From the NCBI GenBank assembly GCA_947650365.1, contig OX393556.1:79032079-79096078 (forward strand): a stretch of DNA of 64,000 nt, given 5' to 3'. This document shows positions 4,637 through 42,342 of this stretch, in pieces. This DNA comes from Chamaelirium japonicum. Lineage: Eukaryota > Streptophyta > Magnoliopsida > Liliales > Melanthiaceae. Made by a program: the position numbers and the translations under genes. The notes below the pieces were generated by a model that was not told the DNA's origin, did no database searches, and saw only the letters and a list, made by a program, of their open reading frames with translations. How positions within the stretch are numbered: position 1 is the first letter of the stretch; every line of letters starts with the position of its first letter.

Positions 4637-4638
<2 letters not shown>

Positions 4639-19149: not shown

Positions 19150-20560
19150 TTCTATTTTATGGCGCCCTGCTCGATCAATAGAAAACTCATTACAATTATT
19201 AATCTTCTCTAAGTCTGTATAATAAGTTGTTAAAATACAATCAGGAACAACAGAGGAAGAGAAAGAGGCCCTTTCTGAGAGGGTCTTTTTGGCCAATAAA
19301 TCGGTGCAACCGCTTAGATCTCTACGGATGTGACAGAACCGACACTCTTCGAAGAGATTGATAATCATCCTGCAGTCGGATACATAACGTTGTACCCGCC
19401 ATGGAGGAGAGAGATCTCCATCTGACAAGATGTGAAAAAGGGTCTGGTTATCCCTCTCAACTACCACTCGAGTTGCCGCCAAGGAGAGTGACGCCTTTAA
19501 CCCATGAAGCAAAGCTATGACTTCAATAACAATAGGTTCACAAGCATCATAGAATTCTCCCGCAGAGAGAATGTGTGCTCCAGTACTATCCTGATGATAA
19601 TACCGGTTGCTGCCTCCATATTATTTAAAGCACCATCTGTATTCACCTTATAAGACCCATTACTATGGGGGAGCCAGTGTGAGGGATGGGAATCCAATTG
19701 TATCGTGTCTTGATTGTTGAAATTGTTGAACAGTACATTAGAAGCAATAATAGTGGATAGAGGGTTAGGTTTGATATGATCAAAAACACATCGATTTCTT
19801 GCTTCCCAAATGTTCCACATAATAATGGCAACATAGCTAAATCGATTGTGAAACTCCTTGTCCCACTTCAAAAAACTATTAATCCAATCAACTAATGAAC
19901 CCTTAACCCCATCTGTTCTTAGTTGGAACTCGGAGTCAAACCAAACAACCTTTGCGAAGTTGCAATAAAATAAGAGGTGCTCACTGGATTCATCTACCTC
20001 AGTGTAGATTGGACATAACCATCAAGTACGACAGTCTATCACCAAGGCTTTTAGCCATCGGAATACATCCTTGGAGGGCTCACCAGACAAACATCAGAGT
20101 TTTCGGTATACAGTCCTTCAACTTCCAAAGAGATCTCCACCTAAAGCTCGCACATGCAGTAGGGGGGAGGGAAGAAGAGGCTGCATTCTTCTCCTTAAAC
20201 AATGCCCAGTACGCAGAGCTAACTATGAAGTTGCCCTTCGAGGATGGTGGCCATAAGAGAGAGTCCAGTGATGTTGTTGCAACTAGGTGGATGTGAAGGA
20301 TGTCATTAGTCTCAAATTGGGTAAAACTCATTTTAGCAAGCTTATCAACATACCAGCAACGTTGGGTTTGATCTATCAGAGGTTCCACTCTCATCTCTTC
20401 TATACATGGATAGGACGTGACTATATGGTCTCCCGGGATGCTGGGGGTCCACCTATCATTGACCAAGTTAACCGATTTGCCATCTCCGATCGCCCAACAA
20501 ATAAATTGCTTGATGTGATCTCGGCCGACCAGTATGCTACGCCAAGGATGTGAGGCACCG
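19150..20560 (-). pseudogene. LINE zf-RVT and RNase H region (ORF2 C-terminus)
   Basis: The region from about 20560 down to 19900 reads as the zinc-binding reverse transcriptase domain (SFRWRSLWKLKDCIPKTL). Next comes an RNase H block reading GSYKVNTDGALNN (first catalytic Asp) and then, in another frame, RVVVERDNQTLFHIL and CHIRRDLSGCTDLLAKK. A stop or frameshift at about 19513 separates the two halves. The plus-strand open frames in this stretch are shadows. Confidence 0.75.
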
Positions 20561-21960
20561 GGGGCGGGAGGCGTCTGCCAAAAACCATATTTGTTTAGGT
20601 ATCTATTGGTCAGGATCTGGGCCCACCAACTATCTGGGTTGACTAGAAATTTCCAAGCAACTTTCATAAGCATAGCCTGATTAACGAGCATCATGTTTCG
20701 AAAACCAAGCCCTCCAAAGAGTTTTGGTTGCAAAAACTTATTCCAGCCCACTAAGTAAATGTGACATATATTGGAATCAAAACCCCACCAGAAATCTCTT
20801 TGGATAGCATTGAGGTGATCTGTAATAGATTTGGGGATGCTCATCATAAACATGAAGTAAGTTGGTATAGAGGACAAGGTAGATTTCATGAGAATCGTAT
20901 GGCCCGCATGAGACAAAGTCCTCGCTTTACAGCCTTTGAGTTTGGATTTGAGTTTATCTTCCAAGAAGGAATAGGCTCTGATTTTAGATCTACCTATAAA
21001 TAAAGGAGATCCCAGATAAAACTCCTCTTGATTCATTATCGACACTCTGAAGATATCCGCCAGAGCTTGTTGCCGGATCCGAGGTACATTTCTAGACATA
21101 GTTAATTTAGACTTGGAAGTGTTGACAAGTTGTCCCGACCAACCATAGAACTTGTCAAATATCAACTTCGTATTAGCCATTTCCAATTCAACTTCTCTGC
21201 CAAAAATAAATATATCATCTGCATAAAAAAGAGGTGAGAGACGATCGAACCTTGTTTTCCCACTCTAATGCTATGGATGAGAGAGGGCTTCTGAGTAGAA
21301 CAGGAATAGATACGGCGATAGAGGGCAACCTTGTCTAAGTCCACGACCGGCTATGATGTGACCTTCAAGCGACCCATTGATGATAGGAGAATAGGTAACA
21401 TTAGCAATACAAACATTCACAAGATTGATGAAGTCATAAGAGAAACCTTGGGCCTTCAATATTTGAAAAATAAAGGACCACTCCACCCGGTTGTAAGCCT
21501 TGGCTATGTCGACCTTAAGCGCGAAGTAACCGCGACGGCCATTGGAACTCTTGATGGTAGCAAGCACCTCCTGAGCGATTATTATGCTGTTAGCAATAAA
21601 TTTGCCTGGGACAAAGGCACTTTGGTTCTTGGAGATGCATTTGCTAAGCAGAGGCTTCAGTCTGTTTGCAATAATTTTAGTTCAAATCTTATAGGAGACG
21701 TTACATAAAGTGATAGGCCGAAAATCAGATGGTGTCTCAGGCACCTTTTTCTTTGGTATTAGAGCAATGTGAGGGGCATTAATCTGCGGTGGCATAACTT
21801 TAGAGGTAAAAAACTTGAATGGCTTTAACTAGGTCCTGACCAACCACATGCCAACAAGTTTTGTAAAATCTTGCTATCAGACCATCAGGCCCCGGGGACT
21901 TCAAATTGTTCATAGCAAATAGGGTAGCCTTAATCTCTTCCTCTGTCGGGACCCAAGTAA
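20560..21960 (-). pseudogene. LINE reverse transcriptase domain
   Basis: This is the polymerase of the LINE. Minus-strand reading gives YFALKVDIAKAYNRVEWSF (catalytic Asp in palm motif A), then GLRQGCPLSPYLF, then after a frameshift FLYADDIFIFGREVE (YADD codons at 21214-21225), then the thumb region. The catalytic aspartates are still encoded, but the frame breaks between the GCPLSP block and YADD and again near the N-terminal part. Confidence 0.85.
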
Positions 21961-22274
21961 GAGAGTAATTGTCCTCCGATGAGATAATTGTAGAAAAACA
22001 AAGCTCTGATAGGTCAGCTCTGGGCCGAGAAGAGGAATAGAGAACATGAAAATACTTCTAGAAGACTTCTGCAATAGCATCCGGTTTGAAAACCCAATTG
22101 CCGGCATCATCTTTGATAGCTGAGATCCGATTTCTCCTTCTGCGGTTCAAGACTGCCGAATGGTGAAACTTGGTATTTCTGTCCCCATCTTTGAGCCAAT
22201 GGGATTTTGATCTTTGCCTCCAATACATCGCTTCAAGATCAAGGAGTATATGATGTTGGATTTGAAGCCGGCCT

Positions 22275-23215
22275 TTAGTAGCAAGATTTTCCTTTGATGG
22301 TGCTAACTAACATTTGAAGCTTAACTATAGAATCTTTAACAGTGTTAAGACGACAACGAATGGATCCAAAAGATTTGTTATTCCATCTACTAAGGTGTTT
22401 TGCCACCACATCGCACTTAGCTCTGAATGCATGGAGGTTGGTGCTCACTGGACCATTAGCCCAAGCATTGTGAACCATTGTGATGAATTCCGGGCTAGTT
22501 TTCCAGAACTCTTCAAAACGAAAAGGCCGCTTGCGCTTTTTGATAGCTGAGGATAGGTTTAAAAGGATGGGTGAATGATCACTACCCAACCGTGGAAGGT
22601 GCGACACCCCTGCCACCGGGAATTTAAGCCGCCATCCAACATTAGCCATGACCTTATCCATCCTCTCCCTCATAAATTGGTGGGTATTTCTGTTGTTGTC
22701 CCAGGTGTACGCTGCTCCTTGGAAGCCAATATCTAGCAAGCCCAGCGAATTCAAGAAATTGAGAAGATTTTGGCAATTTTGAGAAGAGACTGGCAAGTCG
22801 CCCTCTCTATCTACAGGTGTTAGGATATCATTATAATCACCCATAATACAAAATGGATGATCCATACCTTCTAGTTGTTGCCGAAGCCGATTCCAAACAG
22901 CTAGTCTCTGTTGACGTTGGGGGTGGCCATAGACTCCCACTAATACCCACCTATCTTGAGCTTGATTGACATTGGCAATGATGAAATTGGGACTGCTGCT
23001 GCTGATGTTAATGTTCACATTTGGAGACCAGGAGAGACAAATGCCCCATGAGAGGCCTCTCGCCGAAACGTCAAAGTAGTTGCCGAAGTTGAGATAATCT
23101 TAGATGAATTGCATCTTGGTAGAAGAAGCTTTAGTTTCAGATAAGATTAGAACATCCGGTGCTGAGCTCCGAAGGAGATTGAACAAATTATGGACTGTAG
23201 GGGGGACTCCCCAGA
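22275..23215 (-). pseudogene. LINE apurinic endonuclease domain (ORF2 N-terminus)
   Basis: This part nicks target DNA to prime reverse transcription. The N-terminus (near 23160, minus strand) reads APDVLILSETKAS. It is followed by GVYGHPQ, the metal- and DNA-contacting FCIMGDYNDI and the catalytic GSDHSPI motif, all typical of the endonuclease/exonuclease/phosphatase fold of L1 LINEs. A stop near 23100 and the lack of continuity with the reverse transcriptase show it is a pseudogene. It should not be confused with the host CCR4 gene, which uses the same fold. Confidence 0.85.
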
Positions 23216-23500: not shown

Positions 23501-23550
23501 TGTAACATCCGCTCCAAACATACAAGATATTGTCCACTTTGCCCGTGCCC

Positions 23551-23643
23551 GCACGAGAACTTCCCAAGGAGGTCACCCATCCTAGTACTGCTCTCGCCCA
23601 AGCACGCTTAACTATGGAGTTCTTACGAAATCCGTAGCGGCGC
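23551..23643 (-). other. 5S rRNA-derived segment in Cassandra LTR 1
   Basis: The minus strand reads GTTAAGCGTGCTTGGGCGAG, then CTAGGATGGGTGACCTCC, then GGGAAGTTCTCGTG, the central and 3' parts of plant 5S rRNA. The 5' third (GGATGCGATCATACC in true 5S) is replaced, so it is a retrotransposon promoter module and not an rRNA gene. Confidence 0.85.
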
Positions 23644-23968
23644 ACGGCTTTAAAACGCGTCTTTTATGTTTGGGAGGGGAAATTATATAAGTAGCTCAGG
23701 ATCTCCTTCTCTCCAGGCGATGTGGGGCTAACACGTGGCCTTGTACACCTCACCTCACCTCACCTCATCCATCTTGGCATCACAGCCTCAGGAGTCTTGG
23801 CTCTTGGCTCTTAGCCTATTGGATTTTGGTTGTCACAATACACCCCCCATAGGGCTACATGTCCTCGTGTAGGGTTAGACCCCCCCATCTCGAGGAGAAC
23901 CGGCTCTGATACCATTTTGTAACATCCGTCCCAAATATACAAGATATTGTCCGCTTTGCCCGTGCCTG

Positions 23969-24058
23969 CACGAGAACTTCCCAGGGAGGTCACCCATTCT
24001 AGTACTGCTCTCGCCCGAGCACGCTTAACTACGAAGTTCTTACGAAATCCGTAGCGAC
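23969..24058 (-). other. 5S rRNA-derived segment in Cassandra LTR 2
   Basis: Same 5S-like module as in LTR 1, with scattered substitutions (for example CCTGCACGAG and a TACGAAGTTC variant). Confidence 0.8.
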
Positions 24059-24299
24059 ACACAACTTTAAAACGCGTCTTCTATGTTTGGAAGGGGAAAT
24101 TATATAAGTAGCTCATGATCTCCTTCTCTCTAGACGATGTGGGGCTAACACGTGGCCTTGTACATCTCACCTCACCTCATCCATCTTGGCATCACAGCCT
24201 TAGGAGTCTTGGCTCTTGGCCTATTGGATCTTGGTTGTCATAATTTTTTATAACATTCGCTCCAAACGCACAAGATATTGTTCGCTTTGCTCGTGTCCG

Positions 24300-24392
24300 C
24301 ACGAGAACTTCCCAGGGAGGTCATTCATCCTAGTACTACTCTCGCCCGAGCACGCTTAACTATGGAGTTCTTACGAAATCCGTAGCGGCGCA
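24300..24392 (-). other. 5S rRNA-derived segment in Cassandra LTR 3
   Basis: Same module, more diverged (GTCATTCATCCTAGTACTA). This LTR begins TATAACATTCGCT instead of TGTAACATCCGCC, so its terminal TG has decayed. Confidence 0.75.
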
Positions 24393-24593
24393 CGATTTTA
24401 AAACACGTCTTCTATGTTTGGGAGGGAAAATTATATAAATAGCTTAGGATCTCCTTCTCTCCAGGCCATGTAGGGCTAACTCGTGGCCTTGTACACCTCT
24501 TCTCACCTCACCTCATCCATCTTGGGATCCCAGCCTCAGGAGTCTAGGCTCTTGGCTATTGGCTATTGGATCTTGGTCGACCCTAAAACCATG

Positions 24594-25478: not shown

Positions 25479-27501
25479 TATATGTGTGGAAAAAGATTCG
25501 AGTCGTCTTTATTGCACAAAACAAGATTACAGAGGCCGGGACCCATGGACTCGGGGGTGGTGAGCCGGGTGCAGTGAAGATTTGATCAGGAGATTGTGGG
25601 AGAGATCCTATGGAGGGTCCCTTTGATCCGCGTCTCCATGTTACTTCGTGTGAGAGCTCTAGAAGGATTGCTCAGGACGGAGATATTTACAGAGTGAGGG
25701 TTTCTTGAGAGGCTAAGTATTTGTCGCCATTCCTTTTGTCCCTTCCGTACTTCGCGCTTTCTCGGCTATGGGGTCTTTGGCTTCGTTCCTCGATCTTCGC
25801 ATCTCTCTCGGCTCTGGCTAGATCTCGACGTCCTTGATCGTCGGTTCGCAGTGTCGATCGTGCTTTGGCTTCGACTTTGGCTTTACTTTCGGCTTTGGCT
25901 TTGATTTGGCATGGCTCTGGCTTCTGCTTTGCTTTGGCGCTTGCGCTTGAACGTAGAAGGGTAGAGGCTTGCGATACTTTAGTTCTTCTAGACTTCGCGT
26001 CGTATCAGCTAGAACATGTGGTGCTTTCCTCGTGACCGTCGTAGTTGCTTGGCTTTGGTACTTGCGTTGCTTTGGCCCGGGCTTTATCGGTGCTTTTGCT
26101 TCGGCTTCTTGTGTTGGCTTTTGCTTTGGCGTTGACTCGATCTTCTTCTCAAACGGCAATGACTACGCCTTCACTTCTTTTTTATTCTTTTGGCTTTCTC
26201 GATGGTTATGGCGTCGGCTTGACTTCTTCTTTCTCCGGACTTCTTTGGCGTGATCAGAGTTGAAGACTTTGTTTTGAAAATAACGGATGTAGCGCCGCTT
26301 TGGGTGTCCTTCTCTAAGCTTTCTTCTTCGTGAATAGAGTGGATGTTGTTGAAGACAACGGGGCGATGCTGCTTCGATCTTCTTCTCCGGGCTTTTGGAC
26401 TTGATCGGAGTTGAAGGCTTGTTGAAGACGATGGGGTGATGCCGCTTTGATCTTCTTCTCCGGGATTTTGGGTTTGATCGGAGTCAAAGTCTTGTTGAAG
26501 ACGACGAGGTGGTGCCGCTTCGATCTTCTTCTCCGGGCTTTTGAGCTTGATCGGAGTTGAAGGGTTGTTGAAGACGACAGGGTGGTGCCACTTCGATCAT
26601 CTTCTCCGGGCTTTTGGGCTTGATCAAAGTCAAAGGCTTGTTGAAGACGACAGGGTAGTGCTGCTTTGATCTTCTTCTCCGGCCTTTGCTTCTGGTGTCT
26701 TTGGTGTTGAAGGTTTTTTCTTCTTCGAGCTTTCTCCTTCGTGCATGGAGTCAAAGGGTTGATCTTCTTGTGTAAGGGTCTTCACGTTGATAAGGACTTT
26801 CAATGGACTAAGGCGGTCCTAAAGGGATAGGCTTGCCCGAGCCTTGTGAAGCCTTGGGTCATTGAAGGCGTGTCTTCTCCTTTGCAGAGCTTCCTTGCTT
26901 CTGTCTTCGACCTCTTGAGCCTTCCCCCTCCCCCTCTATTTATAGGTGAAGGGGGTGGGGAGAGATATAGGAAGATTCATTTAAATCCCTTGATTATCTC
27001 TCCCATAACTATCCAAGATTCATTCCATCATTTATGGGAGAATAAACCTTCATTTATTTTCCTTTTCTGGTGGAGTAGTTATGGCCTAATCATTTTGAAT
27101 TTTATTTAAATCTTACACATTAAATTGATGGTGACCTGGCTTCGTTTCATGTCCGTCGGATCGAGGGATCGATATATATCCACGCTTGTGTAGACGTCTA
27201 CGCAACCTCCCCCCGTGCATGGCAATTTTCTTTTCTTTTTCTTCTTATTTTCTTTCCTTTTCTTTCTTTCTTTCTTTTCTTTCCTTTCTTTTCTTTTCCT
27301 CCCTTGGCCGGCTGCACCCTTCCCACGAGAAAGGGGGGGCCACGGTTTGGCAAGGGGCTGGATGGGCCCCACTTGAGGATGGGCCTACCCAGCCTCTCCT
27401 TCGGTCGGATCCGGTGGGACCCCTTAGCTTAGCGTGGGCCCATTTGCCCTTGGGTTGGCTTGCACGGGTCGGGCTCGGGTGCGATCAAATTTGTGTCTAT
27501 A
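25479..27501 (-). repeat. 3' LTR of the gypsy element
   Basis: It aligns over its whole length with 40273-42342. Recognisable blocks are the GTCGTCTTTATTGCACAAAA edge, the long 'cttgttgaagacgacggggtggtgccgctt' tandem array (about 26330-26680) and the CTTTTCTTT-rich tract near 27230-27300. Open frames here (for example KKIKAASPHRLQQAFNSDQ) arise from the tandem array. The unit of that array is about 72 bp and encodes nothing recognised. Confidence 0.85.
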
Positions 27502-27620
27502 AATGCCCCGTCAAAGATGAGTGCGCTTGCGAAAAATGTGTAACCCTTGTTTACGTAGGAAACGCACAGCGCTTGTCCTTGATTCCTTTTCTGAACAGAG
27601 TTGAAGCTTATTTAAAGACA
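27496..27620 (+). promoter_or_regulatory. Candidate promoter for the antisense ORF
   Basis: At the inner edge of the 3' LTR the plus strand reads TCTATAAATGCCC (27496-27508), and a second TATA-like TATTTAAAG lies near 27610. Both are upstream of the antisense reading region and in its direction. A leader of about 0.9 kb containing GC-rich blocks would then precede the first recognisable protein text. Position and motif only; no transcript evidence. Confidence 0.3.
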
Positions 27621-28350
27621 CCTACCCCTCTGCTTCTTTCATCCAGCGTCTGTTCTTGCGGAGGACTGAGGCTTGGAGACCGCCGTCGGAAGGGGCTACC
27701 TAGGGTTGCACAGGACTTGCTCCGTCTTCCTAATTGTCGCCTCTTTCGTCGGCGGCGACGGTTGTCGCAAAGGATCAGCAATGGTGCGTGAGTTGAAGAT
27801 CGTTGTGAAGGTGAGCTTCAAGTGAAGAGGGGAAGATAATCGAGGTGATGAGGATGGGGCACTGTGATCGAGGTGTCGCTCTTCACCCTTTTTCTTCTTC
27901 TTCTTTCTTCTTTGGCATGCGGAGGTAGTGGCAGCGGCGATGGGCGGCGCGGGTATGGGGCGTAGTGACGGCGGCCTGCAGCGTGGGGCGCAGTGGCGGT
28001 GGCCTACGGCGCGGGCATGGGGCGTGGAGGCCAGGCGGTGCGAGGGGCCGATTCGGGCAAGCGGACGTGGGGCCGAGTTGCGTGGGCGGACACGGGGTCG
28101 AATCAAGTGGGCGGATGCGGAGCCGAGCCGGGTGGGGTCCGACCGAGTCGAAGAAGAGGGGGGGGGGGGCTACGGGCCCCCCTCTAGTTTGTGGGGTGTG
28201 CCCCCTTCGTGCGAGTTCTGATGAGGGGGGACTGCGGCCCCTCGGTCTCTCTCTCTTTTTTTTTTCGGACTTTGGGATTGCGGGGTCTCTTGCTTGGTGA
28301 CGGGACTATCAGGGCCAGTAGGGTCTGTTTTAGACAAGAACCCCTTGCCG

Positions 28351-28395
28351 TTAAGCGTGCTTGAGCAGTATAAGGATGGGTGACCACTAGGAGGT
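28351..28395 (+). other. Isolated 5S rRNA-like fragment
   Basis: GTTAAGCGTGCTTGAGCAGT and AAGGATGGGTGACCACTAGG match the middle of plant 5S rRNA in order and orientation. No other Cassandra LTR sequence flanks it. It sits just upstream of the antisense ORF. Confidence 0.6.
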
Positions 28396-28437
28396 TTTTT
28401 TTTTGGCTGGCTTCTATTCGTTGGACTTAGCTGGCCT

Positions 28438-31400
28438 TTGCTGGACTTGACTTGCCTCTCCTTGTATTCTTTCAGGGATCGAGCATTCAAGAGCTTGGCT
28501 TCTCCGGGGTGGATTGTTGAGGACTTCTTCGACGGGAGTAAGTACCTTTGCATCCCCCTAACTCGGGTGTATCGCTACCGCACTTCGAAGAGAGATGATC
28601 GTCTGTCAATGCTCCGGATTCCCATCCATGAACGCATCACAGAGGATAGAGTTGCCAATACGAATTACGGGATGCCGAAGCTGAGCGATAAGGTTTATAT
28701 TGATGAGGCGATCTCCGTGAAGCTTCTTCTCCCGAGTTTGAGTCTGCCCTTCTATCACTGCGCCGAAGATTTTGTGCCTACGCCGATAGTGGCCTCGAAG
28801 ATCTGCTCTCATTTGACTCGATGCGGCATGGATCCTGGCCTCATGGGAATATTCAATACCTCTATGACTTTTGCGAGTGAATGGGTGAGCTTTCAGAAGT
28901 TTTCGGGACAGAGCCTAAGACGAAACCGTTGGTGAAGTTACTAGCACTAGCTCTCCGAGAGTACAATCGTCCTGAGGGAATGTACCAAGTTCTCTGCGAA
29001 CTTTGGTGCTCGGATACCAACACGTTTCTTACTGGAGCGGGAGAAATAGAGATTTCTCTCCGCGATGTTCACATTATCACCGGATGCCCCAAGGTGCGGA
29101 ATTACTATCAAGAAAAGGTGTTGGCTCTGAAGGATTTGATGGATACCAGTTTCTCCCTGAGTTATTGTCTTCTTTTGTTCAAGGCATATGCTATCATTGC
29201 GATGCGAGGTCAATCGGATCGGGTTCGTTATTCGTCTTGGGTAGATTTTTTGTTCAGGGGTGAGTACCGGTCTCCTGCCCCTTCTGCTCACCCGATGTGA
29301 AAAAGTTTCTAGATGAAGAGGCCTCCACTGCGATCCTTCGTGAGGCCGATTGAGTCTTTAGCCCGAGTGAAGCATTCAATGGTGGGGAAACGAAGCCCAT
29401 GGGAGGTTCTTGGTTTGGAGCGTGACAGCGAGGAGTGGTGAGCCATTAATCGAGCTGCCGGTTTGGCCATTTTCCTTTGTCAGTTCGTGCTTCCTTGTAC
29501 CGGCGAAGTCATTCGTCCTGGGAATTTTCTTGTAGTGTCCTGGATGGCGAGGGGAGAGCTCTTCAACCTGGCACCAGCTATCTTGTGCGCTTTATACGAA
29601 GGGCTTAGTGGCACGTATTGGAGCTTGTCTAATTCGGACAACACCAAAGGGGAAGTCGGCCGGTCCAACTCCTTTGGCCCCCTGCACTACTTGTACGGTT
29701 GGGTGGCTCTTCGTTTCCCGAAAGGGATCTTCACCAGACGTGGGCATCCAGTAGATTTGTCATTCTTGCCAAGCGTAGGGGGGATTTTGAATGCCTTCAT
29801 TAGCTGGGAATGCCTGAAGGAGTGTGCTCAAACGCTTTTGAGAAAGATAGAAAGCACAGACTTCGAGTTTATATCAGAGCACTCAGTTATGCCTCTAGAG
29901 AGGTCAATGGTTTATGACAATGAGGAGCTCTCTGACGGCTTGTACTGGAATATGGTCAGCTATCGTCCAGGCTACTTGGTTTGGCGTCGAGGAGACACAG
30001 TGAAGGTGGAGCAGTACTCCCCTCACCAATTTGCTCACCAACAGGGATTTCGATAGGAGGTGCCCGGCATGCCGTAGCGGCTGCAAGGGCGCATTAGTCC
30101 ACAGGAGGACTATCACCTCTGGACTTCTCTTTATACTCGGTTGACTGGCTGCAGCTTCTTTCCTAGGACCAAGTCGGGATTGAGAGATGTCGTGACTCTA
30201 AGTTATTGTAAATGGATTGATGAGCGAGTATCTTCACTACTGGCTAGCCTTCCGATTGATGTCTTGGCGGATAGCGAGTTCAAAGACTTCAATTTTGATC
30301 CTTCGGCGGGATCGAAGGATCGTCACCTCTGGCTGGGAGCTCAGAGGATCGGGAAGACTTGTAGCCATCTTTCCAGCGCTCGCTGGGTTTCTTCTTCGGT
30401 TCCCGTGTCAGGGGTCGACCCTATGAGTGCCCCTGGGCCCTCCATCTTCCAGAAGACAGCACTTGAAAGTTCCTCGCCTAAGAGACAGAAGCTGTGTATT
30501 CCATGTGGGGTGACTTCGAGGGTGCCCTGGCAGGCAGAGGATATTGAGGAGCCTTGTCTTTTAGGGGATGAGGTGATCCCTCCATCCGGGATAGCTTTGT
30601 CCGACTTTGCAGGTATGCATCCGGTTTTTCTTTTTGCTCCTTCTTTGATTTCTGGGGACTTCATCATGCTGAGTAGTGTGTCCTTTTTCTTTGGCCAGAC
30701 TTCGTCCTAGTAGGGGAACATGAGTTGGATTCTTCGAAAGCGTGCTAGGGGCGTTCCCTTACTGAGGCTGCACGGGAAGCGCCTGGGAAGTGTGGGCTAG
30801 ATATCCCCATGGATGACCTGGCCCTTCTCGAGCTTTGCGGGAAAAACTTTCCTAGTGGCGACATAGATCTGGATGACATAGACGTCGATGCTTTGTCCTT
30901 TCATGAGGAGACCGAGTTTTGAGTGTCGGCAGACGGCATACTCCGATTGTCATTTTCTCAGGTTTGGTGGAGAAGACGGTTGGCGCGGCAGCGGTGACAA
31001 TTCTTCCAGTTTTGCTGACCTCACTAGCGAAGATAGCTCCTATGGCAGCCGCAACAGTGGGTAAAGCTTTGCCCACGTACTTTGAGGCACTAGCGAAGAT
31101 ATCAGGTCGATGCTTGAGTCGTTCCAGGACGAGGGTTTTGGCGCTCTCCACGACTGGTGCTCTACTGATGGTACTGAGTTTTGTGCAAGCTTGGCGGAGT
31201 TCAAGGTGGATAGTTCTTCGTTTGCCGTGTAGATGAGCTTGCTCGTGACTGATAGTGAAGCTTATCGTTCCCGACGGGCTATATTGGAGGGAAGTACCCC
31301 TTTTGAGTTAGCAGCAGCCAAGGAGAGTTTGGGTCAGTCGGAGCTTCAGCTTGCAGATGCGACTTCAAGTTTGACGAAGGCGCAAAAGAAGGTGTAATCG

Positions 31401-31607
31401 GTGCGAGCTTCTCTTCAGAAAGCAGAATCTTGCTTGGAGCGAGCCAAGACTGCGGAAAGGACTTTGAAGGCAAGCTTCTAAAAGCAGCAAGCGGACTTGT
31501 CAGCTAGTCGTGAGCTCCTGGCCACTCGCCCTTTAGAGTTGCAGCAAGTGAAGGCCACTAAAGAGGAGCTGTTGCGACGTCTTCGAGCTGTGGATACTCT
31601 CTACTAG
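28438..31607 (+). pseudogene. Antisense ORF of the gypsy element with plant mobile domain-like signature
   Basis: The region runs opposite to gag-pol, between integrase and the 3' LTR. Protein-like text continues through several frame changes. Segments are 28438-28935 (ASPGWIVEDFFDGSKYLC, VYIDEAISVKLLLPSL), 28881-29300 (YQVLCELWCSDTNTFLTGAG, EIEISLRDVHIITGCP), 29463-30056 (VVSWMARGELFNLAPAILCA, GPLHYLYGWVALRFP) and 30141-30710. A Lys/Glu/Leu-rich tail (about 31300-31607: SLQKAESCLERAKTAERT, ELLRRLRAVDTLY) looks like a coiled coil. The GEIEISLRDVHIITGCP block matches the start of the plant mobile domain (aminotransferase-like) family, which is linked to Tat-lineage elements. Stops after 28935, 29300 and 30056 show decay. 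Its biochemical role is unknown. Confidence 0.7.
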
Positions 31608-31792
31608 TTGTATCTTGTTTTGACATTTCGCACTGTAGTTTCTTTTACGGATTCATACCATATATGGAATATTGTTAGCATCTTTTTTTGTTGGACTGAA
31701 CCTGAAGTAACTTCTCAAGTTGCCTACATACCCCTCTAAGGGGGATCAAGTCACACGTAGTTCATTTTTTTTTTCCTAAGTGCGGCCTTGCC

Positions 31793-32131
31793 TTAGGCAT
31801 AGTACCTTTTGAGGTACTTGTCGTTGATAGGGCTGAGTATTAGCCCTTCTGGCGTCATGAGCAGGTACGTGCCACTGGAGTAGACTTCTTTGACGGTGTG
31901 CAGTCCATCCCACTTGGCGTCAAACTTTTTTCCTCCTCGGTGTGAGAGAATGATGGGGTGCCTGACTGCCAGCACCAGCTCTCCTGTTTAGAAGGATCGA
32001 GGACGAATCTTCTTGTTGAAGGCGCGAGTCAACCTAGCTTGATAGCACTTCAGGCGTTGCTAAGCTTCGAAACATCTCTCATCTAGTGCCTCTAGTTCCG
32101 CTAGGCGAAGTTGGGTGTTGCCGTCGCTAGC
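31793..32131 (-). pseudogene. gypsy integrase C-terminal end
   Basis: Beyond the Cassandra insertion the minus strand resumes with a segment reading NTQLRLAELEALDERCFEA, then LVLAVRHPIILSHRGGKKF, KWDGLHTVKEVYSSGTYLL and a final LKRYYA before the stop at 31793. The GxKFxxKWxGPY-like block is the usual C-terminal integrase module. The region between it and the core is frame-broken. Confidence 0.75.
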
Positions 32132-32188
32132 GAGACTGTAACATCCGCCCCAAACACACAAGATATTGTCCGCTTTGCCCGTGCCCGC

Positions 32189-32281
32189 ACGAGAACTTCC
32201 CAGGGTGGTCACCCATCCTAGTACTACTCTCGCCCGAGCACGCTTAACTACAGAGTTCTTATGAAATCCGTAGCGGCGCAC
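32189..32281 (-). other. 5S rRNA-derived segment in the low-coordinate (3') LTR of the intact Cassandra
   Basis: The minus strand carries GTTAAGCGTGCTCGGGCGAG and CTAGGATGGGTGACCACC, as in the other Cassandra LTRs. The GTTAAGCGTGCT and GGATGGGTGACC words overlap the internal Pol III control region of 5S genes. Confidence 0.85.
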
Positions 32282-32600
32282 GGTTTTAAAACGCGTCTAC
32301 TATGTTTGGGAGGGGAAATTATATAAGTAGCTCAGGATCTCCTTCTCTCCAGGCGATGTGGGGCTAACTCATGGCCTTGTACACCTCACCTCACCTCATC
32401 CATCTTGGCATTCTCGCCTCAGGAGTCTTGGCTCTTGGCTATTGGTCTATTGGATCTTGGTCGTCACAATCCACCCCCCTTAGGGCTACACGTCCTCGTG
32501 TAGGGTTAGACCCCCCCATCCCGAGGAGAACCGGCTCTGATACCATTTTGTAACATCCGCCCCAAACACACAAGATATTGTCCGCTTTGCCCGTGCCCGC

Positions 32601-32693
32601 ATGAGAACTTCCTAGGGTGGTCACCCATCCTAGTACTACTCTCGCCCGAGCACGCTTAACTACGGAGTTCTTACGAAATCCGTAGCGGTGTAC
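32601..32693 (-). other. 5S rRNA-derived segment in the high-coordinate (5') LTR of the intact Cassandra
   Basis: Same module as 32189-32281 with a few substitutions, including CATGAGAACTTCCTAGGG on the plus strand. Confidence 0.85.
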
Positions 32694-32890
32694 GGCTTTA
32701 AAACGCGTCTACTATGTTTGGGAGGGGAAATTATATAAGTAGCTCAGGATCTCCTTCTCTCCAAGCGATGTGGGGCTAACTCATGGCCTTGTACACCTCA
32801 CCTTACCTCACCTCATCCATCTTGGCATTCCCGCCTTAGGAGTCTTGGCTCTTGGCTATTGGTCTATTGGATCTTTGTCGTCACAGAGAC

Positions 32891-33776
32891 CTTCTTGGAT
32901 TGCTATCCTGAGTAAAGGGATCTAGAGCTCTAGTGGAAGAACGGCTTCTACCTAGTAGACAAGGGAGTACGGAGTTGGTTGTGTCGGAGTGCGGAAGGAA
33001 GTGCGGTATGTCCATAATGCTTCGCCCATGTGTTCGTGTCAGTCCTTCTTCGATTTCGAGACGACCTTCTCTAAAAGCTTGCAGAGAGTCTTGTTAAAGG
33101 CTTCTGCCAGACCATTGGCTAGGGTGTTGTACATCGTTGAGCACCTTTGCTTAATGTCGAACTTAGTGCAAAACTGACTGACAGCGGCATTCTTGAACTG
33201 CTTCCCGTTGTCCGTGATGATGTAGCGAGGGACGCTGTATCAAAAAATGATATCATTCTAGATGAAATTGATGACAGAGTGCCTTGTGACTTCTCGCAAT
33301 GGTATTGCTTCAGCCCATTTGGAGAAGTAATCTGTTGCTGCCAAAATGTAGAGATGTTACTTGGATGACTTGGGCAAAGGACCAACGATGTCAAGTCCCT
33401 ATCCATCGAAGGGTTATGACGCAATTGTCGGATGCAAGGGTTTTGGTGGCTGCCGGATGTAGTCGCCGTGGAGCTGACAAGGTTGGCACTTCTTGGCGAA
33501 TTCCAAGCAATCATTGATCATCGTGGGCCAGTAGTATCCCATCCTCTTGATGCGGATATGGAGCTTTGGATCGGACTGGTGCGTGCTGCAAATTCCAGCA
33601 TGGACTTCTTGCAGCGCCGCTTCCTCTTCTTCTTTTGCTAAACATCTCAGGAGGGTACCGTTGTAGCTAAAACGGTAGAGCTTATTGTTGAAGTGAAAGA
33701 ACTTCAGGGACCGACGACGAATATCAACCTTGCACTTTAGATCATCAGGGAGCCTTCCATGGGTGAGATAGTCCAT
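32891..33776 (-). pseudogene. gypsy integrase, N-terminal and catalytic domains
   Basis: The zinc-binding HHCC part (33414-33776) reads EEEEAALQEVHAGICSTHQS and KKCQPCQLHGDYI. The catalytic core follows in broken frames: ATDYFSKWAEAIPL, IITDNGKQFKNAA and ANGLAEAFNKTL, which supply the D, D and E residues. The Cassandra insertion (TSD GAGAC) cuts the gene just after the core. Confidence 0.8.
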
Positions 33777-34060
33777 GAAGAGTTGTCTCTAATTTTAATC
33801 TTCAATTACGAGGACATGCACTGCATTGACTTGACCTGGAATCCGAGCAGGGATGTCTTCCTTAGTGATCACTATTCTTTTGCAAATGGGGACGACGAGC
33901 GGACTTCTGTAGCCGCCAAATTTGCAAGTGTGTCGGCCTGTTGGTTGAGATTCCTGTAGACATGCTGAATAGAAGTAGCCTTGAATACGTTGAGAAGTTC
34001 CATAGCTCGCTTGTGCAATGGCACGAGGTCTTCTTTGTTGACTTCTTATGCCTCGAAGAC

Positions 34061-34285
34061 TTATTGGATGATGAGCTGGGAGTCGTAGAAAATCTCGAGT
34101 CCTTGAAGCTTCATGTCGTCAGCGAGTTCGAGGCCGACGAGCACTGCTTGATCTTCAGCCACGTTGTTGGAGCATGGTTTTGATAGCAGGAATAAGAATG
34201 AAAGTATCTCATCGTTTGGGGTGACAAAAACGACTCCTGCCCCGCCACATCTTGCCTTGTTGCGCCATCGAAGAACATCTTCCAA
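34061..34285 (-). pseudogene. gypsy second (archaeal-type) RNase H domain
   Basis: The minus strand reads GGAGVVFVTPNDEILSF and NNVAEDQAVLVGLELADDM, ending with FYDSQLIIQ. The N-x-A-E-x-x-A-L and D-S-x-L signatures are those of the extra plant RNase H acquired by the Tat lineage. A frame break near 34280 separates it from the upstream part. Confidence 0.75.
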
Positions 34286-34549
34286 GAGGGAGCGATGTCG
34301 ATGGAGAACACTTCCTCGTCTGGGTGGTCTTTTGATAGTTTCATTGTGTTGGGAGAGGATATTCCGCTAGGAAGTCCACGAGTGCTTACCCCTTGACTGC
34401 CTTCTGTGGAACGAAGGTAATATCGAACTCGAGGAGGAGCAGTGCCCATTTGGCCAAGCGTCCGGAGAGCACTAGTCTTGACATAATGTATTTGAAAGGG
34501 TCGACTCTTGAAATGAGCCTGATGACGTGAGCCAGCATGTAGTGTCATA

Positions 34550-35935
34550 GCTTCTTTGTAGCGAAGATGAGTGGCAGACGAACTCTTTCAATCGGGGAGT
34601 AGTTTAGTTCTGCGCCAACAAGGGTGCAACTCAAGTAGTAGCATGATGTCTCCTTGCCTAGCTCGTTGTCTTGAGCCAGGAGTGCCCCCAAGGACTGCTC
34701 CTAGGCGCTAATTTAAAGGATCAGGGGCTTTCCTTGACTGGTGCTGATAGAACTGGCGACTTTAGCAGATATTCCTTGATACTTTAGAGGGCTTCTTGGC
34801 AAGCTTCGTCCCACTTGAATGGCGGCCCTTTCTTCATAAGGCGACTAAAGGGCTGATAGCTTCCGGCTAGGTTGGCGATGAATCTTTTGATGTACACCAG
34901 GTGGCCCTGGAGACCTCTGAGATCCTGCACCATCTTTGGAACAGGCATATTGAGAATATCGTCAATTTTGGCTTAGTCTATCTCAATGCCTCGATGCCGC
35001 ACGACAAAGCCGAGGAATTTACCCGAGGAGACTCTGAACGTGCATTTGAGTGGGTTCATGTGGAGTTGGTATCTTCGAAGTTGTTTGAAGATCAGCTCGA
35101 GGTCTTGAAGATGTATTGACTTCTTCTTGGACTTTACGACAAGGTCGTCGATGTAGCACTCCATATTTTGATGAAGAATGTTGTCGAAGATTCTCTGCAT
35201 GGCTCGTTGGTAGGTGGCTCCTGTATTTTTCAAGCCGAAGGGCATGACTTTATAGCAGTAGATCCCCTTTGGTGTGCGGAACACCGTGAGCTCCTCGTCT
35301 TTGGGCGCCATTCGGATCTGGTTGTAGCCTGAAGATCCGTTTATGAAAGTTAGCACTTCGTGGCCTATCGTCACGTCCATCATTAGTTCCGTGATTGGCA
35401 ACGGGAAATCGTCCTTGGGGCATGCATTGTTTAGGTCTCTGAAGTCCATGCACATCCTAATTTGACCGTTCTTCTTCTTGACTGGAACAATGCTAGAGAT
35501 CTAAGTCAGGTACTTGAGCTCTTGGATGAAGGCGGCTTCGATGAGCTTAATTTATTCGCTTTCTATCTGGGGTAGCAGCTCCGGTCGGTAACGTCTTTGT
35601 CCTTGCTTGATGGCGCTAGCTCCGTGTTTGACGCCGAGCTGGTGTACTGCAATATTAGGATCGAGACCTGACATCTCCTTGTAAGACCATGCGAAGACAT
35701 CTCTGTATTCTCGGAGCAGCTTGATATATGCAGCTTCTTCTTTGGGAGTCAAGAGTATGCTGATGATTGTAGGTCGAGGCTCTTTTTCTGTGCCCAGGTT
35801 GATTTCCTTCAAGTCGTCAACGGTAGACTGCCCCCTTTTTTCGAGGACTGGCGGGGCATCTTGCAACTCATCGTCTAAAGTAGAAGAATCACCATTTTCA
35901 GTTCCAATAATGGAGATATGATTGATAGCCGCCAT
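34550..35935 (-). pseudogene. gypsy reverse transcriptase
   Basis: The N-terminal part (35552-35935) reads YRDVFAWSYKEMSGLDPNI. The palm (34973-35455) reads MCMDFRDLNNACPKDDFPLP, TFINGSSGYNQI, KVMPFGLKNTGATYQRAMQ and CYIDDLVVKSKK. YIDD keeps both catalytic aspartates, but the motif A Asp is changed to Asn (FINGSSGYNQ instead of FIDG..). The connection and first RNase H region follow down to about 34550 with several stops. Confidence 0.85.
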
Positions 35936-36164
35936 GTATCAATCATAGAAGATTTTATTCGGAGACCTTGTCGAACACATCAACTTGAGTGGGTGGGTGG
36001 GCATCGAAACGGCTTCCCTAACTGGCATTCCCAAACGGTCGAACACCGACTTCCTCTTTGCTTGCTTGATTGGCCCGAGTCTTTTCGAACACGGATCTAT
36101 ACTTTGAATTTGGCCGGCTTTGACTGCTTTTCTTTTTCATCTGGAGTATGGCCCGACATTGAGC

Positions 36165-37793
36165 TCATCGCCATCTTCTTTTGGCTAACTTGATATTGGG
36201 ACGGACGACATAGGTAGAGCGTGCATCGAAGACTGACGATCCTTCAGTTGTTTCATCTATCATCTTCACCTCAATGTAGTTGGAGGTGAAGGTCTTCTTT
36301 GTTGCAATCTTGATGACCATCGGGGTTTGACTAGAGCCGATGTCTCGCCGATTTGGGAGAATTTGCTCGCCGCTTTGAAAAAGACGAGCTTGAGTCTTGA
36401 TCATCCCATGCGGTATCACAGCTGAAAGAAGCGTGCCCATATGCATGACACTTTCTTTGTTGTAGTCGGCATTGAACAGCAGTTTAGCGGCGTTTTGCCC
36501 CCAACTCCCTTTCGGCTTGAATGCGAGTTGACTGGAGTTGAAGGAGCCAACAGGTTCTGTCGGATTCGAAGCTTGCATCAGACCAAGTAGTGGCAATGTC
36601 ATCTCTTTCAAGGTGATGACGTTGGCCTCTGACAGTGGTGGAGCCGTTTCTTTCATTGAAGCAAGAGTTTGTCGTTGTGTTTGCAAAGCCATTGAGACAT
36701 GAGGCATAGGACCGACACAGCTTGGACGGGCAACGGAGTATGTTGCGTGGATTTTGGCTTGAAGCTGATACGCATCCTTTGTCTTGATCTCAGTGCTTCC
36801 TTGACTTCGAGTATCGCCTTGCTGGATGGTTGCTCTGGATTTGCAGGTAGAGGTGTTTTGTCCCGCCTCACCTTTTTAGCCTTTTAGGTTCGAGGAGCTT
36901 TAGTTGGAAGGACTTCTAAAAAAAGGTCTTTTGCTTGGTAAACCTTGGCATTGGCAAGGTGTGCTTCGGCCTCATTGAACGACTTGTCATCAGTGACGAT
37001 GCACTTCTCCATGCCTTCCTCGTAGTACTTGAGGCACTGGTGCCAGGTGGACACCACGATATCGTTTTTGTGTAGCCATGGTCTTCCTAGCAAGAGGCAA
37101 TATGATGTCTGACAGTGAATGACGTGGAAGAGGACTGTCGTGTCAAGCTGGCTGATGTAAAGCTTCAAATGAATGATCCCGATGGTGGACTATCCGCCCT
37201 AATTGAACCCTTGAATAACCAGTTGTGAGAGCTGGTCAGTGGTAATGTCGAGCTGTCTCATTGTTTGGATGGGCATGATGTTGACGGCGGAGCCACAGTC
37301 TAGAAGGATTCGATTTATCGGCCTTTTCTTGATGTACCCTGAGACGTAGATGGGCCGGTTGTGCAGTCGTGCTCCGAGTTGCAGATCTTCATCTGAGAAG
37401 GTTATTGTTGCATCACAGGAGGCAACAGTTCTGCCCTTCTTAATATCCTTCCTCTTTCTTTTATGGCTGACTGGATCTGCCAAGGCCGCGGCCATCGCTA
37501 GGCAAGCTTTCTTTGGGGAGGTGCAATGCTTCTATAAGCGGCAAGTGTAAGATTGCCTCGTTGTAGGAAGCAGTGCCCTCCTTGTCGGAGCTGTCCCTCT
37601 CTTTGTCAGAGTTGCTTTCTTCAGAAGACTCGATCTCGCCTTTCTTTTTTGGCATCTCGTGAACTTCGGCAATGTAACACGAGACTCTGAGGTGCTGATC
37701 GGCTGGGAGGAAGTGATCGGGGAAGAACTCTTGCAACGTTACCGGTTCTGGAGGGCTTTGCTGGAGGAGATCATCTAGATTTACTGGCGGCAC
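36165..37793 (-). pseudogene. gypsy protease region and linker
   Basis: The aspartic protease fold reads NRILLDCGSAVNIMPIQT (near 37290), where the usual D-S/T-G triad has become D-C-G, and ends YCLLLGRPWLHKNDIV (36884-37168). The stretch 37461-37793 upstream is acidic and low complexity. The stretch 36165-36707 downstream is the linker to reverse transcriptase. Stops occur between these pieces. Confidence 0.7.
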
Positions 37794-38279
37794 TTTGAAC
37801 GCCTTTCTTCCTCGAGCTTTGCTTTTCTTTCTATAGGTTCTTCATTCAGGGAGCTTTCTTATCACCCGATCTAGCTTGTGATGTCTTGCTGGCCATAGCC
37901 TTCGCCTCCGAGGTAGAATGATCCATGCATCTTCATCGGTGGATTCTCCCTCGCCAAGGTGAAGATTTGGAGCGGCAACTGCAAGTTCTTCATTGACTGG
38001 AGAAACTTGCTCTTCTGGAGGCTCTGCTGGCTCATCTTCGGATCCCCAACCGGTGGGCTTGATCTCTTCCATTGAAACGGATGAAGGCTTGGAGTAGAGA
38101 ACGTAGTAGTCAAACTTACCCGAGGGCTAGCCCAACAGGCCGACTTCTGGATCTCCTTGCTCGTACCTTTCTTGGAGAGTTTGTTGAGATGTGACTTTGC
38201 TCAGGAGAGGTACTGGCGTGAGCGACGGTTGCCCCCGGGGCAATGGTGTTTTATTCCTAGCGAGTACAGGAGCACGTCA

Positions 38280-40100
38280 TCATCGCTTCGAGACCTTTGG
38301 TTGTAAAATAGGCTTCGCGATTGGCCTTTGATGATTGATGTGCAACTTGGGCATTCTCTGTCCTGCAGCAATGAGTACCGGCGGAAAGGAACAGAAGGTG
38401 ATGGACGTCATGTTTGTTGTAGCGACATTACCAGAGTCGATTTTAATCTTTCCTTGCTTTGCGATTGCCATGATTCTCTCTTTGAAGACGAAGCACTTCT
38501 CGATGGGATGGCTAACCACCCGATGATACTTGCAGAAGAGTGGATCATCGACACGATGCATTTGTTCGGGCCTCTTTGAAGGAGGAAGCTCGATCATCTT
38601 TTCTTGCAGCAACTGGTCAAACATGGAGGAGACTTCCGAGTCCGGGAAGGGATACTCCTTGGCTTCAAGTTCCTCGAGCGTTATTCTAGGTGGCCGCTGA
38701 GGCTACGAAGGCGTTATGATGGCCTTGTCCGGCTTGCTACCGATCTTGAGTGGTTTGGAAGTTGAAGTGACATCGACTTTCTTTGGTTTGGATGCCGGCT
38801 GTTTGTCCTTCTTCTCCACCTTCAGAAAGTCTTTGCTTTTCGAGTCCCTGTGATTTGCTAAACTGAGCTCCATGTCGTGGGCTCGTGTTGCGAGTTCTTT
38901 GAAGGACCAAGGCTTGATCCCTTTGAGGATGTGCAGCAAGCCCCAGTGCATGCCTTGGGTGCACATCTCGATGGCCGAGTCTTCAGACAAGCGATCTCGT
39001 GAATTTAGCGCAAGGTTCCTCCAATGATCGATGTAGTCGATCACCGGCTCATCCTTTCTTTGCTTGACGGCAGTAAGCTCAGTTATGCTAACGATGTGTC
39101 GGGTGTTGTAGAAGCGGTTGAGGAACTCCCTCTCCATCTGGTCCCAACTATCGATGGATCCTGGAAGGAGATCAATATACTAGTCAAACGCATTACCTTT
39201 GAAGGTGTGAACGAACTGCTTCACCATCTCATCGCCGTACGTACTGGCATTGTTGCAAGTTTCGACGAAGTGGGCGACGTGCTGCCTTGGATTTCCATTT
39301 TCGTTGAAGTGTTGGAACTTTGGGGGCTGGAACCTGGTAGGGAAACACAACTGTTGGATCCTTGCGGTGTAAGGCTTCTAGTAGGCCGCCGTGATTGGAA
39401 GAAGACTGCCGTTGTGGGAACGCATCATATCGGCCACCAATGACTGTATCTGCTGGGTAGTCATCGTTGCCACCACCGATGGTTGTGTGTCCACCAAGAC
39501 TGGTATTGGAGAGATGACCTTTGCTAAGACGGGAGTTGAAGAGAGTGCAAGAGTAGTCGCTAGAACTGTCGGGGCAACCTCTGCCAGAGTTGAAGATGGC
39601 ATTGAAGCGGCTACTGGAGATGCAGGAGTTTGATTAACTGTTGTAGCATCCCTCGCGCTTAGCCTTTGAAGGAAGGTGTTGATGTGACGATCCTTCTCCT
39701 CCATCAGCCGAGTGATTTACGCCATGTGTTCACCCATTTGCATGACTTGGAGTTGAAGAGTGGATGGGGGATGATGATGCAAGACATATTGATGTTGCAT
39801 GCCTGTATCCTCAACATCATCGTCGGAGATGTAGTTGCGCCGACTTGCTTCTGTTTGATGACGGACGTTTACCCCCTGCAAAGGGGGTGCAGGGTCCATC
39901 GGAGAACCCAACTGGGCTCGGGGTTGGGGCTGGTCCTCCCCAAATTTCTGGATATGTGTTCTAGGACCGAGGCTCGTTTCTTCATGCACTAAGGCCTCGT
40001 CAGTGCTTTGGCGAGCATCTTCGGCAGTAATTTCTAACGCAAAAATATCCGCAAGAGTTCGAGTATGCTGAGTATAGACACGTACCATCGGGGGAACGTC
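38280..40100 (-). pseudogene. gypsy gag region
   Basis: The capsid-type segment (38703-39137) reads REFLNRFYNTRHIVSITEL and DYIDHWRNLALNSRDRL, typical of the retrotransposon gag family. It is preceded by a Thr/Pro/Val-rich N-terminal region (39378-40088) and followed by FCKYHRVVSHPIEKCFVFK (38280-38624), a CxxH..HxxxxC metal-binding block common in Tat-lineage gag. Frame changes separate the three parts, so no intact gag is made. The start of gag is probably near the Met at 40088. Confidence 0.75.
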
Positions 40101-40247
40101 ATCCTCCGGGTTTTCTAAACCACCATATCGGAGTCGTGGAGACTCGACGATGGGTCATAGGCTTGTTGGAGCAAATGTATCATTGTTTGTCCCGGCCATG
40201 ACAAAACTTGAGGTAACTCCTTCAGACGTACGGATGAGAGAAGAGGA

Positions 40248-40266
40248 GGTCCCATCGGGCGTGCCA
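40248..40266 (-). promoter_or_regulatory. Primer-binding site of the gypsy element
   Basis: Just inside the 5' LTR, the minus strand reads TGGCACGCCCGATGGGACC, starting with the TGG expected opposite a tRNA CCA end. It lies 6 bases from the LTR edge. I have not matched it to a specific tRNA. Confidence 0.6.
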
Positions 40267-40272
40267 AAAATC

Positions 40273-42342
40273 TGTATGCGAGAAAAAAGATTCGGGTCGT
40301 CTTTATTGCACAAAACAAGATTACAAAGGCTGGGACCTGGGGACTCATGGGTGGTGAGTCGAGTACGGCGAAGATTTGATCAGGAGATTGTGGGATAGAT
40401 CCTCTGAAGGGTCTATTTGATCCACGTCTCCATATTACTACGTACGAGAGCTCTAGAGGGGTTGCCTAGGATGAAGATCTTTACAGGGTGAGGGTTTCTT
40501 GAGAGGCTAAGGATTTATCACCGATGCTTTTGTCCCTTCCATGCTTCGCGCTTTCTTGGCTAGGGGGTCTTTGGCTTCGTTCCTCGGTCTTCGTGTCTCC
40601 CTCGGCTCTGGCTAGATCTCAGCGTCCTTGATCATCGGTTCGCAGCGTCGATCGTGGTTTGGCTTCGGCTTTGGCTTTACTTTTGACTTTGGCTTTGCTT
40701 TGGCGTGGCTCTGGCTTCTACTTTGCTTTGGTGCTTGCGCTTGAACGTAGAAGGGTAGAGGCTTGTGATGCTTTAGTTCTTCCGAACTTCATGTCGTATC
40801 AGCTAGAACGTGCGGTACTTTATTTGTGACCGTCGTAGTTGCCTGGCTTTGGCACTTGTGTTGCTTTGGCGTGGGCTTTACTGGTGCTTTTACTTCGGCT
40901 TCTTGTGTTGGCTTTTGCTTTGGCATTGGCTCGATCTTTTTCTCGAATGGCGATAGCTACACCTTTACTTCTTCTTTATTCTTTCGGCTTTCTTGATGTT
41001 GGTAGCGTCGGCTTGACTTCTCCTCTTCTCTGGGCTTCTTTAGTGTGATCGAAGTTGAAGACTTTGTTTTGAAGACAACGGGTATAGTACCGTTTCGGGT
41101 GTCCTTCTCCAAGCTTTCTTCTTCGTGAATGGAGCAGATGTTGTTGAAGACGACGGGACGATGCCGCTTCGATCTTCTTCTCTAAGCTTTTGGGCTTGAT
41201 CGGAGTCGCAGGCTTGTTGAAGACGACGAGGTGATGTCGCTTCAATCTTCTTCTTCGGGCTTTTGGGCTTGATCGGAGTCGAAGGCTTGTTGAAGACGAC
41301 GGGGTGGTGCCGCTTCGATCTTCTTCTTCGGACTTTTGGGCTTGATCGGAGTCGAAGGCTTGTTGAAGACGATAGGGTGGTGCCGCTTTGATCTTCTTCT
41401 CCGGGCTTTTGGGCTTGATCAAAGTCAAAGGCTTGTTGAAGACAACAGGGTGGTGCCGCTTCGATCTTCTTCTCTGGTCTTTGCTTTTGGCGTCTTCGAA
41501 GTTGAAGGTTTTTTCTTCTCCGAGCTTTCTCCTTCGTGCACGGAGTCGAAAGGTTGATCTTCTTGTGCAAGGGTATTCATGTTGATGAGGACTTTCAATA
41601 TACTAAGCCGGTCCGAAAGGGATAGGATTGTTCGAGTCTTGTGAAGCCTTGGGTCGTTGAAGGCGTGTCTCCTCCTTTGCAGAGCTTTCTTGCTTTTGTT
41701 TTCGACCTCTTGAGACCTCCCTCTCCCCCTCTATTTATAGGTGAAGGGGGGTGGGAAGAGATATGGAAAGGTTCATTTAAATCCCTTGATTATCTCTCCC
41801 ATAACTACCCAAGATTCATTCCCTCATTTATAGGAGAATAAACCTTCATTTATTTTCATTTTCTGGCGGAGTAGTTATGGCCCAATCATTTTGAATTTTA
41901 TTTGAATCTTGCACATTAAATCGATGGCGACCCGGGTTCGTTTCTTGTCTATCGGATCGAGGGATCGACGTAGATCCACGCTTGTGTAGACGTCTACGCA
42001 ACCTCCCCCCGCACATGGCGGTTTTCTTTCCTTTTTCTTCTTATTTTATTTCCTTTTATTTTCTTTCTTTTGTTTCTCTTTTTCTTTTTTTTCTTTTCTT
42101 TCTTTTTCTTTCTTCTTTTCTTTTCCTCCCTTGGTCGGCTGCACCCTTCCAACAGGAAGAGGGGGGGGGGGGGGGGGGCATGGTTTGGCAATGGACCGGG
42201 TGGCCCCCACTTGAGGATGGGCCTACCCGGCCTCTCCTTTGGTCGGATTCGGTGGGCCCCCCTTAGCCTGGCGCGGGCCCGTTTGCCCTTGGGTTGGCCT
42301 GCACAGGTCGGGCTCGGGTGCGATCAAATTTGTGTTTCTACA
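40273..42342 (-). repeat. 5' LTR of the gypsy element
   Basis: Partner of 25479-27501, 2070 bp, with a better-preserved TG at 40273 and CA at 42341-42342. It contains the same array of units of about 72 bp (about 41130-41490), here with an extra diverged unit, and a G tract at about 42163-42177. Confidence 0.85.

Follow-up and report, generated by a model that had tools for sequence, protein, structure and literature searches.

The window analysed here, a 64,000-nucleotide stretch of Chamaelirium japonicum DNA, raises the question of whether coding-type sequence that runs opposite to a retrotransposon's gag-pol is a dead relic or the remains of a gene whose protein was under selection. By comparing this locus with its relatives in the host genome, we find that the window holds a decayed Tat-type copy, and that its family probably carries a selected, two-exon antisense gene whose transcript would be spliced and whose product would be a nuclear regulator of the element.

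The host element and its broken antisense gene

The window element is an old Tat-type Ty3/gypsy copy (Table 1). The target duplication GAACC flanks both outer ends of its long terminal repeats (LTRs), which are 87.9% identical; across 2023 aligned sites, 204 transitions and 40 transversions separate them (K2P 0.135, or 0.084 once CG/CHG-type sites are removed). At two plant rates, we take this divergence to correspond to an insertion ~3–10 million years ago. The RVT_3 match, presumably of the aRH type, lies between the RT and integrase matches, where the additional RNase H that defines Tat elements stands between RT/RH and INT, and the first-pass annotation was right to call the element Tat-like. 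Passages of PMC6317226 give the domain order of angiosperm Tat elements (Ogre/Retand), additional RNase H included. Ogre-type traits are also present, in the form of long LTRs and an extra open reading frame (ORF) that bears a plant mobile domain (PMD); according to parts of the same source the PMD occurs in 57% of Ogre elements, which makes it a frequent trait there and not a strict one. Further marks of Ogre are a tRNA-Arg primer site and an intron-like gap that parts the gag-prot ORF from the RT ORF; in the window copy, gag-pol is too decayed for such a gap to be read.

Table 1. Features of the Tat-type element and of its antisense gene in the window
Feature	Position	Strand	Basis and remarks
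Tat-type Ty3/gypsy element	25479-42342	-	LTR pair and Pfam domains
3' LTR, 2023 nt	25479..27501	-	pairs with 40273-42342; GAACC outside
5' LTR, 2070 nt	40273..42342	-	pairs with 25479-27501
Decayed gag-pol	33042..40154	-	Pfam matches
gag	38706-39179	-	Pfam match
Protease-like piece	37202-37531	-	Pfam, E 0.1 only
RT	34976-35500	-	Pfam match
RVT_3 (RNase-H-like)	34064-34366 and 33875-34045	-	PF13456, 30.8 and 26.3 bits, cut-off 21.6
Integrase	33417-33788 and 33042-33239	-	Pfam; rve piece 26.4 bits, below cut-off 32.6
Exon 1: likely start, PMD, nuclear-signal-like motif near 3' end	28672..30612	+	Pfam; limits from alignment of relatives
Putative intron, 86 nt, GT...AG, pyrimidine-rich 3' end	30613..30698	+	comparison with relatives
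Exon 2: acidic stretch, helix-rich tail	30699..31607	+	comparison with relatives

The Pfam matches of gag-pol all lie on the minus strand, and the protein-coding-type sequence opposite to them lies on the plus strand, which agrees with the antisense orientation proposed by the first-pass annotation; the motif that it had quoted as typical of the PMD is found at 29040-29090. The PMD profile search, set beforehand as a refuting test, returned two co-linear PF10536 matches in one frame, covering profile positions 19-55 at 28881-29297 (E 1.1e-6, 28.6 bits) and 111-189 at 29442-30053 (E 9.2e-4, 18.9 bits), both below the Pfam cut-off of 34.9 bits. Five exon-1 proteins from relatives all exceed this cut-off (63.4-74.7 bits), and two of the five have an unbroken match to profile positions 19-345 of 347. 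Ten other pieces of the window (four overlapping minus-strand ORFs, two in other plus-strand frames, one on the plus strand opposite gag and three further plus-strand pieces from the same region) gave no PMD match at E<=1.

The single long ORF of ~3 kb that had been proposed did not hold up. The window contains decayed pieces of frame, which comparison resolves into two exons and a putative intron, with limits set by alignment to 39 relatives. The proposed right end stands, because it coincides with the family stop codon at 31605-31607, whereas the proposed left end at 28438 precedes the likely start (28672) by 234 nt. Across 28881-30710, frame +0 contains 6 stops, compared to a mean of 26 in 2000 dinucleotide shuffles, and a best frame with 6 stops or fewer arose in 0/2000 of them. 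The frame changes within the overlap 28881-28932 and is interrupted by in-frame stops at 29298, 29310, 29439, 30054 and 30075. Exon 2 has also decayed, being shorter than in the relatives and containing early stops, and the openness of 30708-31607 alone is not significant (39/200 shuffles equally good). Because the antisense gene is broken here, a full protein from the window copy is very probably absent.

Two further measures were applied to the window copy. Codon usage, judged against the gag-pol codons, did not support the antisense frame, and minus-strand frames scored equally high. By minimum-break count, the plus strand of 28384-30707 was better than 200/200 shuffles and gag-pol was likewise; the opposite strands beat 199/200 shuffles (plus strand of gag-pol) and 188/200 (minus strand of 28384-30707). 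Both strands beat most shuffles, and this count therefore discriminates strands poorly.

Other repeats occupy the window. A TRIM-like miniature LTR element of 749 nt is nested in the Tat element at 32137-32885, bordered on both sides by a GAGAC duplication, with 95% identical LTRs (32137-32468 and 32549-32885) and an 80-nt interior; the interior sequence TCTGATACCA is, we presume, the complement of a tRNA-Met-type primer site. Relatives with three LTRs lie at 23501-24577. On the plus strand, a Copia-type element at 43735-51028 has direct repeats (43735-44861 and 49897-51028, 90.9% identical) that enclose copia gag, integrase and SH3 domains. LINE-like remains lie on the minus strand at 20083-23018, with an Exo_endo_phos match in 22278-23018 (E 7e-9) and no Pfam match at E<=0.01 in 20083-21186. 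The region 900-4700 is dense in inverted repeats, with 135 pairs that are 60 nt or longer. Several foldback arms there are >90% complementary, and the region resembles a nest of foldback elements.

Selection on the antisense frame among family copies

We searched the host genome (1,518,659,071 bases in 3253 contigs) with a 139-residue piece and obtained 2630 candidate matches. The best 150 of the 2630 were scored; all matched, with 75-81% identity, the window copy itself excepted. Forty of these 150 copies were taken as slices of 4.5 kb: the 8 top-ranked ones, then 32 chosen chiefly for the length of their open frames, a choice that inflates the count of intact copies. Thirty-eight were used. 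L018, a rearranged slice that holds two gene copies, was removed ahead of the alignment, which thus covered 39 relatives; L015, whose alignment fails past exon 1, was set aside for the splice-site and selection comparisons. These 38 relatives and the window copy form the 39 rows compared below. Further downstream, the opposite strand carries integrase and RVT_3 in 8/8 slices and RT in 7/8. Consequently, the antisense arrangement is a trait of the family. Both exons are open and joined by GT-AG ends in 14/39 rows, within a sample that favours long frames. Searches for homologs beyond the host genome, in plasmids, in IMG/VR (queried with the RT piece and two PMD pieces) and in GTDB contigs, found none.

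The test for selection compares two classes of variants. If copies decay neutrally once inserted, private variants, defined as singletons, are expected to disregard the frame, and shared variants to be mostly an inheritance from active lineages; the counts follow this expectation. The Fisher tests assume independent sites. Across the 38 copies, the shared variants of exon 1 fall on codon positions 1/2/3 in the numbers 118/76/460, compared to 203/188/177 for private variants. Counted as synonymous/nonsynonymous changes, exon 1 has 471/181 shared versus 150/392 private variants, which yields a ratio of ratios of 0.147 (Fisher p 1.1e-54). Exon 2 had no influence on the choice of copies; in the reading phase expected from splicing, it has 219/136 shared versus 73/233 private variants (0.195, p 5.8e-23), and its first 150 nt are themselves selected (0.167, p 2.2e-5). 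No significant effect was found in the same 38 copies for the intron (16/33 shared versus 6/21 private, 0.589, p 0.43), the upstream stretch (0.753, p 0.25) or the downstream stretch (0.655, p 0.28). The other two frames have ratios of 1.9-2.6.

When transversions alone are counted, exon 1 still shows the effect (0.279, p 1.7e-9), and exon 2 shows it more weakly (0.478, p 0.018); the intron's ratio is then also low (0.25, p 0.32), on 25 classified changes. An 18-copy subset gave ratios of 0.173 for exon 1 and 0.237 for exon 2. These comparisons show strong purifying selection on the antisense frame during the active period of the family, and the selection among copies that the first-pass annotation had asked about is present.

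At the 5' end of the gene, an ATG occupies the putative start position in 37/40 rows, and no further in-frame ATG common to at least 12 rows occurs between this start and 270 nt upstream. The 60-nt windows upstream of -239 have no significant coding signal, and neither a conserved TATA box nor a TATA-type motif was found upstream in 6/6 copies examined.

The putative intron and competing explanations

The comparison shows two blocks that bear the mark of selection, split by a short stretch with no significant selection and conserved GT...AG ends. The coding signal ends at the GT and restarts at an AG ~82 nt later in a different frame. The GT is present in 38/39 rows and the AG in 37/39, typically as CAG/GTATG at the upstream junction and with a pyrimidine-rich run before the CAG downstream. 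The codon at the junction has one base in exon 1 and two in exon 2; therefore, the phases fit. From this alignment, the antisense gene is very probably spliced, with two exons and the putative intron between them.

The two blocks could instead be separate antisense ORFs, one encoding a PMD protein and the other a coiled-coil protein. They do differ in frame in most copies, and conserved GT and AG ends are not rare: in flanking non-coding sequence, 5/33 GT and 5/23 AG columns are equally conserved, so that conservation of the two ends alone is unexceptional. However, codons 1-36 of exon 2 are selected and yet have no in-phase ATG in 39/39 rows; in 17 rows the first such ATG has codon index 195 or 196. 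These early codons must join an upstream start, and we judge separate ORFs to be quite unlikely. Ribosomal frameshifting or plain read-through would also link exon 1 to exon 2, and the intact-like copy L046 has a stop-free 81-nt intron through which its frame reads, so that splicing is not obligatory for L046. For the family, this link is highly improbable. The stretch varies in length from 73 to 93 nt, with all three classes modulo 3 occupied (31/4/4 rows), whereas exon 2 keeps one fixed phase relative to the AG; no significant selection is seen in the stretch; and in L033 and L047 the exon 1 frame would soon meet stops.

It is also conceivable that the antisense RNA, and not a protein, is what matters, by forming double-stranded RNA that damps the element, a role that parts of PMC7264820 put forward as possible for antisense ORFs of plant LTR elements. 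Such a role could act in addition to the protein, but neither a threefold codon pattern nor a shortage of nonsynonymous changes among shared variants in two phase-matched blocks would be expected from it, and we give it little chance. The window copy may, lastly, be an ordinary dead relic, with a PMD-type extra ORF and nothing past what has been published. This copy is indeed broken, and the PMD in Gypsy elements is already on record: besides its occurrence in Ogre elements (PMC6317226), sections of PMC5418596 describe PMD clades exclusive to Gypsy elements, and a plant Gypsy survey ranks the PMD as the commonest non-canonical domain (PMC9289625, in part). Against this explanation, which we consider unlikely, neither the exon-intron structure nor the contrast between shared and private variants was found in the literature searched, although Steinbauerova 2011 and Gomez-Orte 2013 (Grande gene23) could hold part of it.

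According to the preferred reading, a spliced two-exon gene, the antisense gene lies on the opposite strand, in the interval from pol to the 3' LTR, and its transcript would be spliced at the GT...AG ends, joining exon 1 to exon 2. Its protein output would then depend on antisense transcription plus splicing. The putative intron is on the antisense strand and therefore stays in place when the sense genomic RNA is spliced, so that daughter copies would keep it. Survival of an antisense intron through retrotransposition follows from established splicing logic, which we infer to apply here.

The predicted protein and related systems

The predicted spliced product has ~968 residues and contains the PMD, a basic motif, an acidic segment and a helical tail. 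The basic motif PPKRRKVCI is exact in 22/39 rows; judged by eye, we take it to resemble a nuclear signal. The acidic stretch in exon 2 of L033 has net charges of -4 and -6 in its first two 40-residue blocks. The coiled-coil-like tail of the first-pass annotation is weakly supported: the helix-rich tail of one relative has a weak heptad signal, whose power 129/5000 shuffles reach, and no such signal is visible in the window copy's own pieces. A solved-structure search returned a best E of 0.17 for one piece and no match at E<=1 for a 15-row alignment. The predicted structure of 29442-30053 alone (mean pLDDT 42) was rejected. We infer that the product is a putative nuclear regulator, whose likeliest role would be to act in trans on the transcription or silencing of the element.

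The PMD is also found in host proteins. Parts of PMC7156037 and PMC5418596 describe MAIN/MAIL1 as PMD proteins with a nuclear function in silencing; in contrast to the family studied here, these are host genes. Compared to 20 other PMD loci of the host genome, exon 1 has one weak match (L051, 37%, E 7e-4), and exon 2 has none, so that no tail resembling exon 2 is found beside them. One locus (L049, G000:C4:7686103-7687191) contains a single-exon, host-like PMD frame that matches the whole profile at 334.7 bits. In several others the match is divided in two (profile positions 1-181 and 228/236-346), suggestive of a PMD interrupted by an intron at those loci, unlike in the element family. At least 10 near-identical PMD loci, with ~12 stops each over profile positions 6-295 (G000 C7:15041388, C11:52136887, C2:72501884 and others), are another amplified PMD family of the host genome.

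Among retrotransposons, the extra ORFs of Tat/Ogre elements likewise place a PMD outside gag-pol (Neumann 2019, PMC6317226; the PMD-A clades of Ikeda 2017, PMC5418596; both in part). The window family differs from them by its two exons, its exon-2 tail and its measured selection, and the portions of the two papers considered here make no mention of splicing of PMD ORFs. Retand elements also have antisense ORFs in the interval from pol to the 3' LTR, with Grande gene23 and RIRE2 among the examples, and parts of Vicient 2025 (PMC11963269) describe products with helical or SMC-like parts and propose that they are regulatory and nuclear. These ORFs share Transposase_28 (PF04195), which gave no match at E<=1 in the scanned window pieces, nor in the proteins scanned from relatives (5 for exon 1, 3 for exon 2). 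The Retand elements in PMC11963269 have LTRs of 315-1194 bp, compared to ~2.0 kb in the window element, and the terms 'mobile domain', 'PMD', 'PF10536' and 'intron' are absent from the text of that paper.

A second likeness lies outside plants. On paper, HTLV-1 HBZ would share the mode of action of the predicted protein: both would be encoded antisense, come from a spliced transcript, regulate in the nucleus and have acidic and helical segments. The HBZ transcript is spliced, and its protein has acidic and coiled-coil parts. HBZ is a bZIP protein and the window family encodes a PMD; the likeness drawn here is one of arrangement. The nuclear role of HBZ is as told in part of PMC11963269. That the PMD protein would compete with or hijack the host MAIN/MAIL1-PP7L complex, in an arrangement reached independently of HBZ, we regard as doubtful; the idea of competition with host PMD proteins has been published (PMC8616336, in part).

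Parts of the review PMC7264820 describe the functions that antisense ORFs have in plant LTR elements as unknown and urge a search for spliced antisense transcripts. The family offers clear selection on an antisense protein, as read from its copies, together with a concrete splice prediction. A role in silencing, as suggested by the first-pass annotation, is a hypothesis published in part of PMC8616336, according to which the PMD proteins of elements counter silencing, and for this anti-silencing idea a selected and defined candidate partner protein is now available.
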